Assembly (NCBI RefSeq): GCF_019711355.1 | Contig: NZ_CP081297.1 | Location: 1,054,001-1,118,000, forward strand | Direction of reading: 5' to 3' | Source: Qipengyuania psychrotolerans | Lineage (GTDB): Bacteria > Pseudomonadota > Alphaproteobacteria > Sphingomonadales > Sphingomonadaceae | Length of the DNA: 64,000 bases | Part shown: in pieces, positions 22,620 to 26,086 of the stretch | How the letters are laid out: each line of letters starts with the position of its first letter | How positions within the stretch are numbered: position 1 is the first letter of the stretch | Notes under the pieces: generated by a model | Database searches by the model: none | What the model was told of the DNA's origin: nothing | Seen by the model: only the letters and a program-made list of their open reading frames with translations | Made by a program: the position numbers and the translations under genes

Positions 22620-22648
22620 AAGGCGCTCCCATGATGGGGGCGCTTTTT
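22620..22648 (+). terminator. Intrinsic terminator of bamD that contains the capA start codon
   Basis: An 8-base-pair GC stem (22623-22630 with 22636-22643), extended by A/T pairs, is followed by TTTTT (22644-22648). The five-base loop is ATGAT, so the predicted capA start ATG (22631) lies exactly in the loop and its AAGG ribosome site (22620-22623) is within the base of the stem. Confidence 0.75.
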
Positions 22649-24691
22649 CGTTGGGTGGTGTGCGTAATTGCGCTGGCGACATTTACGGTGGCCGAGGATG
22701 CACACGCGCACCCGGAACATTCCCTCGTTGGCGGAGAGGATATCCGGCCGGGGGAAATCCTTGTAGAGGGGATGCTCGACGGCAGGCGCGACCGGATCGA
22801 TCTCTCCTCGGTCGATGTGAGCATCAACGGTAAAATTGCGAAAACCGATGCACAGGGACACTTCGCCGCGAGCGTTCCCCGGTCTGCCTACTACTTCGTC
22901 CAGATTAGCGGCGAACGAATTTTTCGCAGCATGCAGACTTTCGGGAATGCCGAGATAGCGGACGATTCGTGCCACTGTCTGGCGATCCCGGCGATCGAAT
23001 TGGTCGCGCGTAAAAAGGGCAGGGTGGAGCTGTTCTTCGGCGGCGATTCAATGGCTGGCCGCCGCTATTTTTCTGCCCGTCGCGGCGAGAAAGCGGTGCT
23101 CGACCGGGTCACGTTGGACCAGGATCTCGACCAGCTGTTCACTGCGATCAAACCCTATTTCGCGCACAGCGACCTTGCATCAATTAATCTGGAATCGGTG
23201 GTTGCAGCCGAGCAGCCGGGACCGCCTGCGCCCAAGAAATACCTGTTTTTCTCGCCCCCTGAATTGCCGCAGGCATTGGCGAGGGCGGGTATCGATCATG
23301 TCTCGCTGGGCAACAACCACACCGCCGACTACCGCGATGCCGGGCTGCGTACGACCTTTGACGCGCTCGACGCGGCCGATGTCGCGTGGTCCGGAGCCGG
23401 CATGGACGTGACGGAGGCCGAGCGCGCATCGCGGTTCAAAATCGCTGCCGAGAAGCTCTCGATCTACGGCTTTGTTGGCTGGCGCGGGACATGGACGCCC
23501 AACCAGACCGCCACCGAGACCAAGGGCGGGGCTGCATGGGGGCTCCGCAGCGTGGTCGAAAAAGTCACCCGGCGCGAACGCAAGGCGGGTTACACGCCGA
23601 TCATGCAATTCCATGGGAACATGGAATATGCCGACCGTCCCAGCGAGATGTCACTTCCCCGGTTCCGTGCGGCTATCGAGAAAGGCGCGCCGCTGGTAAT
23701 CGGACACCATCCGCATGTCACTCATGGGCTCGAGATTTACCGGGGCGGTCTGATCGCCCATTCTCTCGGCAATTTCCTGTTCGACCAGGAGCATCCACAT
23801 ACCCATGTGACCTATGGCCTCAAGGTATGGCTGGAGAACGGGAAATTCCTGCGCGCCGAGGTGCTGCCGATCCAGATGCTCGACTATCGCCCGGTACCTG
23901 CCACCGGAACCATGCGCGAGGCGGTTCTGCGGCGGCTCTATTGGCTTTCAGCAGAGATGGGTACGAAGCTCGATCGCTCTGGCGGACATGCGGTGGTCTG
24001 GCACAAGCGACCTCGCGAAAGCGAGCCAGAGTGCAAAGCGCCGGGCCCGTGGCATCTTGCCAGTTTTGCGCCCGCCTGCGTCGATCCGGAAATCGAATAC
24101 GGGCGCAATCTGGTGCCGCGCGGCGACTTCGAGAATACGCGCGTGTCAGAAGCCACAGATCGCTTTTGGGTCAGCCGTAACGCAGGGGTAGATTTCCGGC
24201 GGCGAGAATCCGAGAGCGATGGCTATATGGCTCTGCTGCCTGAGGGCGCTTCGAAAGCCTCCTACCTTTATTCCAACAGCTATATCCGCGATGTTTCAGC
24301 ACGTGATTTCACGCTGGAAACACGGATCAGGGTGCCGCGCGATGTCGAGATCGAGCTGATCGCCAAAGCCCGTCCGCACGAAACCGACAAGCCAACGTCG
24401 TCAGTCAAAGGCGAGGTGGTCGCCGCTGCACGCCTGTCGGCATCGGACGACTGGCAAGATCTTCGCCTCCCGTTCACTCGGCCTGAAGAAACGCTGGGCA
24501 AGGCACGGGCTTTCCGGTTTATTCTGAAATTCCGGTTTTCCGACGCTAGCGATGGGGGCGAGAAGACGATCGACATTGACGATTTCGCATTGATCGAATG
24601 GCCCGGCGCAGACGACCAGTCGGATCCAACGCAAGCCTGGCGCTGGACGCATTCCCGCGCCAAAGCGGGCGAAAAACTGGCCGCCCGCTAA
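22631..24691 (+). CDS. CapA-family (poly-gamma-glutamate synthesis type) metallophosphatase-like protein
   Basis: 686 residues, exported by an N-terminal signal peptide (hydrophobic core CVIALATFTVA, likely cleavage after AHA). Residues about 30-110 look like a small beta-sandwich; the CapA domain follows with FFGGDSMAGR, LGNNHTADY, QFHGNMEY and GHHPHVTHGLEIY plus HSLGNFLF. The last 200 residues resemble a carbohydrate-binding jelly roll. CapA proteins anchor or modify envelope polymers; the role here is unknown. The start overlaps the bamD terminator; GTG at 22655 or 22658 is possible but would lose the basic signal-peptide end. Confidence 0.82.
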   Translation: MMGALFRWVVCVIALATFTVAEDAHAHPEHSLVGGEDIRPGEILVEGMLDGRRDRIDLSSVDVSINGKIAKTDAQGHFAASVPRSAYYFVQISGERIFRSMQTFGNAEIADDSCHCLAIPAIELVARKKGRVELFFGGDSMAGRRYFSARRGEKAVLDRVTLDQDLDQLFTAIKPYFAHSDLASINLESVVAAEQPGPPAPKKYLFFSPPELPQALARAGIDHVSLGNNHTADYRDAGLRTTFDALDAADVAWSGAGMDVTEAERASRFKIAAEKLSIYGFVGWRGTWTPNQTATETKGGAAWGLRSVVEKVTRRERKAGYTPIMQFHGNMEYADRPSEMSLPRFRAAIEKGAPLVIGHHPHVTHGLEIYRGGLIAHSLGNFLFDQEHPHTHVTYGLKVWLENGKFLRAEVLPIQMLDYRPVPATGTMREAVLRRLYWLSAEMGTKLDRSGGHAVVWHKRPRESEPECKAPGPWHLASFAPACVDPEIEYGRNLVPRGDFENTRVSEATDRFWVSRNAGVDFRRRESESDGYMALLPEGASKASYLYSNSYIRDVSARDFTLETRIRVPRDVEIELIAKARPHETDKPTSSVKGEVVAAARLSASDDWQDLRLPFTRPEETLGKARAFRFILKFRFSDASDGGEKTIDIDDFALIEWPGADDQSDPTQAWRWTHSRAKAGEKLAAR

Positions 24692-24702
24692 AAACTTTTT
24701 TT
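24664..24702 (+). terminator. Intrinsic terminator at the end of the capA-like gene
   Basis: Stem AGCGGGCG/CGCCCGCT (8 base pairs, 10-base loop) followed by AAAAAC and seven T. It overlaps the last codons of the gene (stop TAA 24689-24691). It separates capA from nhaA transcription. Confidence 0.75.
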
Positions 24703-24709
24703 CGATCAC

Positions 24710-24738
24710 TTGAAACCGGATCGATTTTGTCGCATTTA
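24710..24738 (+). promoter_or_regulatory. Candidate nhaA promoter
   Basis: TTGAAA (24710-24715), a 17-base spacer, and CATTTA (24733-24738). It lies just after the capA terminator. Transcription from here would give a leader of about 150 bases ahead of nhaA. The -10 element is a weak match. Confidence 0.45.
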
Positions 24739-24794
24739 AACACTGCGGACCGGGCCCCTCTGGCGTGTGCATACTTGCCCACGTGATGTCGGAC

Positions 24795-24898
24795 CGCATC
24801 GGACAACCGATGCGCACTGGTAGGCTCTTTCCCCCTCCCTCCCAGCTTACCGGTGCCATCGGGCGTCCGATCGATCCAAATCGATTACGGAGCCGTCA
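24795..24898 (+). promoter_or_regulatory. Structured leader RNA of nhaA, candidate translational riboswitch
   Basis: Three hairpins lie in a row. Hairpin 1: CGCATCGG-ACAA-CCGATGCG (24795-24814). Hairpin 2: a 12-pair helix, 24815-24826 with 24844-24855, including two G-U pairs, closing a pyrimidine-rich 17-base loop. Hairpin 3: TCCG ATCGAT / ATCGAT CGGA with a two-base bulge (24866-24891). The GGAG ribosome site (24889-24892) is partly inside hairpin 3, six bases before the ATG. Known nhaA-linked RNA classes (nhaA-I, nhaA-II) sense Li+/Na+; whether this is one of them I cannot tell. Confidence 0.6.
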
Positions 24899-26086
24899 AT
24901 GGTCAAAGCTATCGCCCCTACGCTGCGCGACTTCCTGCAGAAGGAATCCGCTGGCGGCATATTGCTGATGGTGGCCGCTGCGCTTGCCGTAGTCGTTGCA
25001 AATTCCCCCTTGGCTGAGCTGTATCGCGGGTGGCTGGATCTGCCGGTGGTGGCCGGCATCGGCGGCGCAGTTATCGATAAGCCCCTGTTGCTGTGGATCA
25101 ACGACGGCTTGATGGCTGTATTCTTCTTCCTCGTCGGTCTTGAAGTTAAGCGCGAGATCATGACCGGCCAGCTATCGAGCTGGCGTCAGGCCTCGCTCCC
25201 GCTGATCATGGCAATCGGCGGTATGGGCATTCCGGCAATCATCTATGCCACACTCAATTGGGGTGATCCGACCACGATCAGCGGATGGGCCATTCCCGCA
25301 GCCACCGACATAGCGTTCGCGCTAGGCGTTCTCGCGCTGCTGGGTAGCCGGGTGCCCGTCGCATTGAAGGCGCTGCTGCTTGCGGTTGCCGTCATCGACG
25401 ACATTGGCGCCATCACCGTGATTGCACTGTTCTATACCGAGAGCGTCCAGACAGACATGCTGATCGGCGGAGCGATTACGCTTGCGGCCATGATCGGCCT
25501 CAACCGCGCGAAGGTGGCTGACAGCTGGCCCTATGTTATCCTGACCGTCGTGCTGTGGGTCTTCGTTCTCAAATCGGGCGTCCATGCCACGCTGGCAGGT
25601 GTTGCTGCGGCGATGACGATCCCGCTAACCGCGCGAGGGCAGGAACCGCTTATCCGGATGGAACATGCGCTGCACTATTATGTAGCGTTCCTGATCATCC
25701 CGATTTTCGGTTTCGCCAATGCGGGTGTCTCATTGAGCGGAATTTCGTTCTCCGATCTGATCGCGCCGCTCCCACTGGGTATCGCGCTGGGACTGCTGAT
25801 CGGCAAACAGCTCGGGATTTTCGGCTTCGGCTGGCTCGCCATCAAAACCGGCATTGCCGAAATGCCGGAAGACGTGAACTGGCGCCAGCTTCACGCGATG
25901 AGCCTGCTTGCTGCAATCGGCTTCACGATGAGCCTGTTTATAGGCAATCTTGCCTTCGCTGACCCGGCATTAATGAACCAGGTGAAGATCGGGGTGCTGT
26001 CCGGTTCGGTCATCGCGGCGATCGCAGGCTACCTCCTCCTCAGCAGGGCTCTGCCGAAAGAAGCACTCAAGGAAAGCCTCGCTTGA
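24899..26086 (+). CDS. nhaA: Na+/H+ antiporter NhaA
   Basis: 395 residues, 12 membrane segments. The ion-binding aspartate pair is D167-D168 in AVIDDIGAIT, and a further conserved aspartate is in ATDIAFALG (about residue 137). KREIMTGQLSSW is the conserved cytoplasmic loop. It exports Na+ or Li+ in exchange for protons, giving salt and alkali tolerance, fitting a marine-type organism. It sits between capA and recN with its own promoter and a folded leader. Confidence 0.96.
   Translation: MVKAIAPTLRDFLQKESAGGILLMVAAALAVVVANSPLAELYRGWLDLPVVAGIGGAVIDKPLLLWINDGLMAVFFFLVGLEVKREIMTGQLSSWRQASLPLIMAIGGMGIPAIIYATLNWGDPTTISGWAIPAATDIAFALGVLALLGSRVPVALKALLLAVAVIDDIGAITVIALFYTESVQTDMLIGGAITLAAMIGLNRAKVADSWPYVILTVVLWVFVLKSGVHATLAGVAAAMTIPLTARGQEPLIRMEHALHYYVAFLIIPIFGFANAGVSLSGISFSDLIAPLPLGIALGLLIGKQLGIFGFGWLAIKTGIAEMPEDVNWRQLHAMSLLAAIGFTMSLFIGNLAFADPALMNQVKIGVLSGSVIAAIAGYLLLSRALPKEALKESLA

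Follow-up and report, generated by a model that had tools for sequence, protein, structure and literature searches.

The stretch of DNA that we analysed (the window) comprises 64,000 nucleotides of the Qipengyuania psychrotolerans genome. At 24899-26086, on the plus strand, it encodes NhaA, a Na+/H+ antiporter of 395 amino acids (PF06965; 481.8 bits, E = 1.7e-144), and 6 bases before the ATG there is a ribosome binding site, GGAG (24889-24892, +), assigned by eye. The gene upstream of the nhaA leader (22631-24691) encodes a PGA_cap (capsule synthesis) family protein (PF09587). The leader itself, on the plus strand throughout, contains near its 5' end a full match to terC RNA (Rfam RF03067) at 24742-24801, found with cmscan, which covers model positions 1-59 of 59 and scores 60.3 bits against a cut-off of 39.9. 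terC RNA is the only Rfam family above its gathering threshold in the 64 kb window, and the only match at E-values up to 1 when positions 24650-24950 were scanned against all 4227 Rfam families. Aligned to RF03067, the leader shows the helices P1 and P2 of terC RNA and the conserved letters of its internal loop, and the RNA has the placement of a cis-regulatory element, with a candidate promoter of its own on the 5' side and the nhaA ATG 98 bases past the end of the model. The leader is a member of this known class. terC RNA was reportedly described by Weinberg et al. in 2017, and is a cis-regulatory class for which we know of no ligand.

A preliminary description of the region had seen the form of a translational riboswitch in the leader, had considered that it might belong to a known class or a new one, and had named nhaA-I and nhaA-II as candidates to be checked by an Rfam scan; a wholly new class can be set aside, and so can the two candidates. 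The sensor (aptamer) domain at 24742-24801, which lies 5' of hairpin 1 (see below) and overlaps it, was absent from that description. A position before nhaA is indeed what the Li+/Na+ riboswitches nhaA-I and nhaA-II have in common with this leader (PMC9646797), but neither nhaA-I (RF03057) nor nhaA-II (RF03038) matches at E-values up to 1 in the 301 bases scanned (24650-24950), and the same holds for the Mn2+ family yybP-ykoY (RF00080), such that the covariance models reject all three for the leader. Across the whole genome, nhaA-I has no match at E-values up to 0.001, with a match in one of 14 control genomes; RF00080 has none, with a match in five of the 14; and the search with nhaA-II at E-values up to 0.001 returned nothing here and in all control genomes alike, which makes this genome search uninformative. 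There is next to no chance that the leader is an nhaA-I or nhaA-II riboswitch.

The candidate promoter is of the sigma-70 type (24710-24738, +), with a -35 sequence TTGAAA at 24710-24715, a 17-base spacer, and a -10 sequence CATTTA at 24733-24738 that was placed by eye. TTGAAA begins 32 bases 5' of terC RNA, and this spacing recurs: of 197 distinct upstream regions, 97 have a TTGA-type -35 sequence whose first base lies 31 to 40 bases 5' of the RNA, and each of the other 10-base bins holds 0 to 5. The promoter proposed in the preliminary description therefore holds, and because its -35 position is conserved across loci, the transcript very probably starts at the first strand of P1, near 24744 as judged by eye, upstream of all hairpins.

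Helix P1 of the aptamer is formed by 24747-24753 with 24789-24795 (whole feature 24744-24798, +). Its core has six pairs, with A24749 and A24793 facing each other unpaired, and it can be extended by pairing UGC (24744-24746) with GCA (24796-24798). In an alignment of 16 nhaA leaders (15 of them distinct) the pairs of P1 are kept and the A-facing-A position never pairs. Helix P2 (24763-24767 with 24780-24784, +) has 97.3% of cells paired and three pairs changed on both sides, and the loop strands beside it, GCCCCUCUG (24754-24762) and GAUG (24785-24788), are invariant in the 16 leaders. Downstream of the aptamer the leader can form three hairpins, which constitute the expression platform of terC RNA. 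Hairpin 1 (24796-24813, +) has 7 bp between strands a and b plus the pair C24795-G24814, and is kept in relatives; its foot contains the same GCA (24796-24798) that extends P1, and aptamer and hairpin 1 overlap in these three bases only. Hairpin 2 (24814-24825 with 24845-24856, +) has 12 bp in our pairing check. Hairpin 3 (24866-24875 with 24880-24891, +) has 10 bp, through which the ribosome-site region is paired with strand d (24865-24871, +) and CGGA of the GGAG site is occupied. Strands c (24857-24862, +) and d are also complementary to hairpin 1, and this alternative long-range helix, in which a pairs with d (AUCGGAC with GUCCGAU) and b with c (CCGAUG with CAUCGG), pairs at 13 of 15 positions. 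The three helices that the preliminary description had reported (8, 12 and 10 bp) can all form where it had placed them, and the last does tie up CGGA of the ribosome site. Their back-to-back arrangement is real, yet it is only one of two competing folds.

Hairpin 1 is either closed on itself or opened onto 24857-24871, and strand d otherwise provides the 5' side of hairpin 3. The outer 8 bp of hairpin 2 (24815-24822 with 24848-24855) are present in both folds. Folding of the whole leader (24739-24920) gave -76 kcal/mol, compared with a mean of -57.4 kcal/mol for 200 dinucleotide shuffles (z = -4.57), none of which was as good. This lowest-energy fold (-76.0 kcal/mol) differs from the three-hairpin fold; it contains the long-range helix, and GGAG is hidden in it by pairing near the 5' end. 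Hairpin 1 and the core of P1 can be present together as long as P1 is not extended, so the competition is confined to the GCA of the extension. When only the helices listed above are scored, this fold with hairpin 1 closed (OFF) is more stable, at -49.3 kcal/mol, than the fold with the long-range helix (ON), at -45.7 kcal/mol.

We assessed the two folds in the 16 nhaA leaders. In the ON fold, 87.6% of cells are paired and seven pairs are changed on both sides, amounting to 20 cells compared with 6.0 in shuffles; its covariation is 0.160 compared with 0.076 in shuffles, and neither value was reached in any of 500 shuffles. Twelve of the 20 changed cells lie in P2; the other eight fall on four of the 15 pairs of the long-range helix, in which 84.4% of cells are paired. 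P1 shows almost no variation in these leaders and is uninformative on covariation. In the OFF fold, 83.0% of cells are paired and four pairs (13 cells, 12 of them in P2) are changed on both sides. The preliminary description would have been refuted by a lack of conservation of the paired bases in relatives, or by a transcription start downstream of the hairpins. Neither case holds: hairpin 1 is 100% paired and nearly invariant, hairpin 3 is kept in part, with 62% of its cells paired, and the conserved promoter lies upstream of the hairpins. RNAalifold, applied to the nhaA-leader alignment, recovers P2 and hairpin 1 but neither P1 nor the long-range helix; in its fold the 5' strand of P1 is joined to strand d. 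We do not adopt this last pairing, which is energetically strong and may form, but is no better in own than in swapped leaders (4735 of 5000 permutations).

The same pairings were also assessed in the wider set of terC RNA loci. Of 192 loci, we took those with CCGCATCG and dropped two duplicates, leaving 84 distinct loci; at least six of the 7 bp of hairpin 1 are present in 71 of these, compared with 429 of 1680 shuffles. The last two positions of the hairpin co-vary, being AG with TC in 21 loci and GA with CT in 11, while 10 loci have GA with CG and hence one mismatch. For the long-range helix and hairpin 3, we compared pairing energies within a leader to those obtained when strands were swapped between leaders, starting from 67 leaders of the GCATCG type and 60 others and removing duplicates and short sequences, such that 63 or 66 of the former and 58 of the latter (56 in one control) were used. 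The a:d pairing is stronger in own leaders (-13.18 kcal/mol) than in swapped ones (-9.62 +/- 0.30 kcal/mol; 63 loci; none of 5000 permutations). An earlier cut of 80 loci, those left after four with fewer than five hairpin pairs had been dropped, gave -10.86 compared with -8.99 +/- 0.20 kcal/mol (none of 5000), and when a single locus was kept per distinct loop (33 types), none of 2000 permutations was as good in each of 20 draws. The b:c side behaves likewise (-10.45 compared with -8.84 kcal/mol; none of 5000), as does the ribosome-site hairpin over 66 loci (-8.62 compared with -7.16 kcal/mol; none of 5000). P2 strands, used as a control, show no such excess, pairing more weakly in own than in swapped leaders (-10.51 compared with -11.41 kcal/mol). 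Swapping leaders, the P2 comparison and drawing one locus per loop lessen the concern that shared descent causes these results but do not remove it. We also considered a pairing in which the 3' strand of P1 itself hides the ribosome site in leaders that are not of the GCATCG type, and rejected it as weak over the 58 loci (50 of 5000 permutations; controls 129 of 5000 and 1063 of 5000). That pairing is striking in some individual loci (L055, L170).

The long-range helix is thus conserved, with partial covariation, and the leader has what is generally looked for in a riboswitch: two mutually exclusive sets of pairings, tied to an aptamer and to the ribosome site, and kept by covariation. The form of a translational riboswitch, as the preliminary description had seen it, is supported, with ligand binding putative. 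An arrangement that works without a small ligand, in which the leader is a protein-binding site or an RNA thermometer whose hairpin 3 melts, would draw on the modest stability of hairpin 3 by itself (-9.1 kcal/mol) and on the fact that this hairpin hides the ribosome site. A thermometer, however, has no need of P1, of invariant loops such as GCCCCUCUG and GAUG, or of a conserved long-range competitor, and we consider a ligand-free leader very unlikely.

The relatives of the window differ from it in what lies between the RNA and nhaA. We searched for NhaA in 41 genomes, 25 of them from the genus of the window (its own genome and 24 congeners), and took the best match of most genomes as the locus. 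A match was found in 33 of the 41 genomes. The seven closest NhaA loci (L269-L275; 70-71% identity) all carry terC RNA, and none was found at the 22 more distant loci scanned (L276-L297). A separate set consisted of the best 80 of at least 586 nhaA loci, of which 40 were scanned with Rfam and all 80 with a letter pattern; the letter pattern flagged the same five loci as the Rfam scan. In L269-L275, L014, L024 and L188-L192 (the leaders of L192 and L014 being identical), the order is terC RNA, a DUF465-like ORF of approximately 57-65 codons (taking the start codon adjacent to the ribosome site as its first), and then nhaA. The ORF in L188 is a DUF465 match (PF04325; 32.1 bits, cut-off 25), and those of the other loci are alike by eye. 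Since the window lacks this ORF, with nhaA starting where the small ORF does in the relatives (+157, compared with about +153 to +163), its switch sits directly on nhaA. The letters of the window's ribosome site, TCGATTACGGAG, resemble those of the small-ORF site in L191, TCGATTTCGGAG, as judged by eye, and for this reason a deletion between two CGGAG-like sites is a likely history of the arrangement. Two further loci (L015, L020) have, by eye, a different short ORF between terC RNA and nhaA, overlapping the start of nhaA; they may represent an intermediate in the loss of the DUF465 gene. Among the four loci at which NhaA was scored as the first gene, only the window is truly free of an intervening short ORF. 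In another genome of the genus (G078), the single terC RNA match (L029) precedes a DUF465-like ORF and TerC rather than nhaA, so that the same leader module stands before another gene.

Folding under constraints bears on the direction of the switch. In the free fold of the window, the four bases of GGAG have unpaired probabilities of 0.01, 0.00, 0.03 and 0.01; with P1 and P2 enforced these rise to 0.90, 0.66, 0.73 and 0.34, and with hairpin 1 enforced they are 0.00-0.06. Enforcing a:d alone leaves GGAG paired (0.00, 0.00, 0.03 and 0.00), because it is hidden near the 5' end in the lowest-energy fold, which already contains the long-range helix; GGAG is freed only when P1 is enforced. Of 181 loci, 127 have a usable start and ribosome site, and over these the exposure of the ribosome site is 0.346 with P1 on and 0.239 with the 5' strand of P1 blocked, a gain of 0.107 compared with 0.049 for shuffled platforms (p = 7.6e-4); exposure is gained in 57 loci and lost in 17 when P1 is enforced. 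Twelve of the 16 nhaA-linked leaders were scored (L272-L275 were dropped): five gain more than 0.05, two lose more than 0.05 (L269, L190) and five hardly move, and two of the gaining leaders (L271, L191) are near-identical. Because the enforced aptamer exposes the ribosome site in the window's own leader, the window's switch is likely to be an ON switch, with the direction mixed in its relatives.

We propose that the leader is a terC RNA whose platform probably controls nhaA translation directly, by a relay between P1, hairpin 1 and strand d. Transcription would start near 24744. When the sensor is folded, P1 would extend to UGCGG/CCGCA at the expense of hairpin 1, whose foot gives up its GCA; the hairpin would then open and pair with 24857-24871 through a:d and b:c, drawing strand d away from the ribosome site and allowing nhaA to be translated. 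Without a held sensor, hairpin 1 would close and strand d would form hairpin 3 with CGGA of the ribosome site, turning translation off.

The genes that follow terC RNA elsewhere offer a guide to what the sensor may detect. terC RNA was found in 83 of the 149 family genomes searched, in 52 of 385 from the class and in 45 of 299 sampled from the phylum; the three samples overlap. For 187 loci from searches of the genome itself, the family and the class, we clustered the downstream ORFs and named each cluster by one representative tested against Pfam. TerC is the commonest family (80 loci, plus 15 with a second TerC type), followed by DUF465 (33), Zn_ribbon_TFIIB (20), alpha carbonic anhydrase (11), Bax1-I (9), DUF4112 (7), Na_Ca_ex (7), NhaA (5) and beta carbonic anhydrase (4). 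A first gene could be assigned at 170 of the 187 loci, with 17 lacking a gene, and was TerC in 61 and 10 (the second type), DUF465 in 31 (DUF465 counts are low since ORFs of fewer than 60 codons were unlisted), Zn-ribbon in 17, alpha carbonic anhydrase in 11, DUF4112 in 7, a lipoprotein-looking family with no Pfam match in 7, Bax1-I in 6, a small membrane-like protein with no Pfam match in 5, NhaA in 4, beta carbonic anhydrase in 4, and others in 7. The genome of the window has a second terC RNA (L002; G000:C1:951269-951326, minus strand; 53.9 bits), directly upstream of an ORF in the alpha carbonic anhydrase cluster. No terC RNA was found within the loci scanned around its two TerC-domain genes (L298, L299), the first of which is its TerC gene (G000:C1:943130-943936), though TerC is the commonest target elsewhere. 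By eye, terC RNA also precedes a DUF475-looking membrane protein of a TerC-like family at four loci (L304, L305, L306, L318) and lipid (diacylglycerol) kinase-like ORFs at five (L300, L301, L303, L307, L032), which is unexpected for a pH switch.

NhaA works at alkaline pH, and Bax1-I proteins can be pH-gated Ca2+ channels. The presence of two unrelated carbonic anhydrase families together with cation/proton transporters and TerC proteins among the targets (TerC, alpha and beta carbonic anhydrases, Ca2+ exchangers, Bax1-I and NhaA) suggests pH or bicarbonate as the signal, and on the strength of this gene list the signal may be alkaline pH or something tied to it, bicarbonate for example. The Zn-ribbon, DUF465, DUF4112 and lipid-kinase-like ORFs (the last by eye) are not obvious pH genes. 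Alternatively, a terC RNA with the same platform might bind a metal ion (Mn2+, Ca2+, Na+ or another), the pH theme being indirect. The prominence of TerC among the targets fits such a ligand, as do the zinc that carbonic anhydrases bind and the Ca2+ that Na_Ca_ex, going by its family name, moves. In addition, TerC-family proteins of Bacillus subtilis are described as acting in the metalation of exported manganese-requiring enzymes (PMC10550928; PMC12096827). Nonetheless, we infer that no single metal joins NhaA, Na_Ca_ex, TerC and the two carbonic anhydrase families, and the Mn2+ family RF00080, matched in some of the control genomes, is missing from this one; a metal ligand appears rather unlikely.

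Taking the alkaline-pH reading further, we tentatively suggest that terC RNA may be a riboswitch class that responds to alkaline pH (or bicarbonate) and is widespread, chiefly among Alphaproteobacteria. The genes under its control would then serve pH homeostasis and comprise TerC/Alx-like transporters, carbonic anhydrases, Ca2+ exchangers, Bax1-I channels and NhaA, and in leaders of the Sphingomonadales type hairpin 1 would be exchanged in its entirety, paired either with itself or with the strand that otherwise covers the ribosome site. The copy before nhaA, the second copy before an alpha carbonic anhydrase and the family-wide gene list make for a concrete and cheap test of the signal, and exact bases to test are given by the relay that links hairpin 1 to the ribosome-site strand. 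The RNA family was already known; what is worked out here is the relay, which lies past the Rfam model, and the placement of the RNA directly before nhaA. In the literature that we searched, mostly papers outside subscription, we found neither the signal of terC RNA nor this relay and placement; one paper citing the 2017 motif survey treats, in its accessible part, the TerC protein only (PMC10898510).

Compared with terC RNA as modelled in RF03067, the leader has the same full match over 59 positions, the same P1 and P2, the same conserved loop letters and a gene just downstream. The Rfam model ends at the GCAUCG tail, whereas the leader's relay of hairpin 1, long-range helix and ribosome site lies past it, and the gene in the window is nhaA, without the DUF465-like ORF of its closest relatives. 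The Li+-responsive nhaA-I and nhaA-II riboswitches are likewise associated with nhaA but differ in lacking any covariance match to the leader; their authors speculate that ribosome access is the step at which most of them act (PMC9646797). The yybP-ykoY family (RF00080), which includes the E. coli alx riboswitch, shares with terC RNA the control of genes for TerC-family proteins, but its covariance model does not match the leader, and that model has 177 positions against the 59 of terC RNA. The nearest experimental parallel to a pH reading of terC RNA is provided by E. coli alx and mntP: the alx riboswitch responds to alkaline pH and Mn2+, and at both alx and mntP the two signals are described as acting together (PMC9603457).
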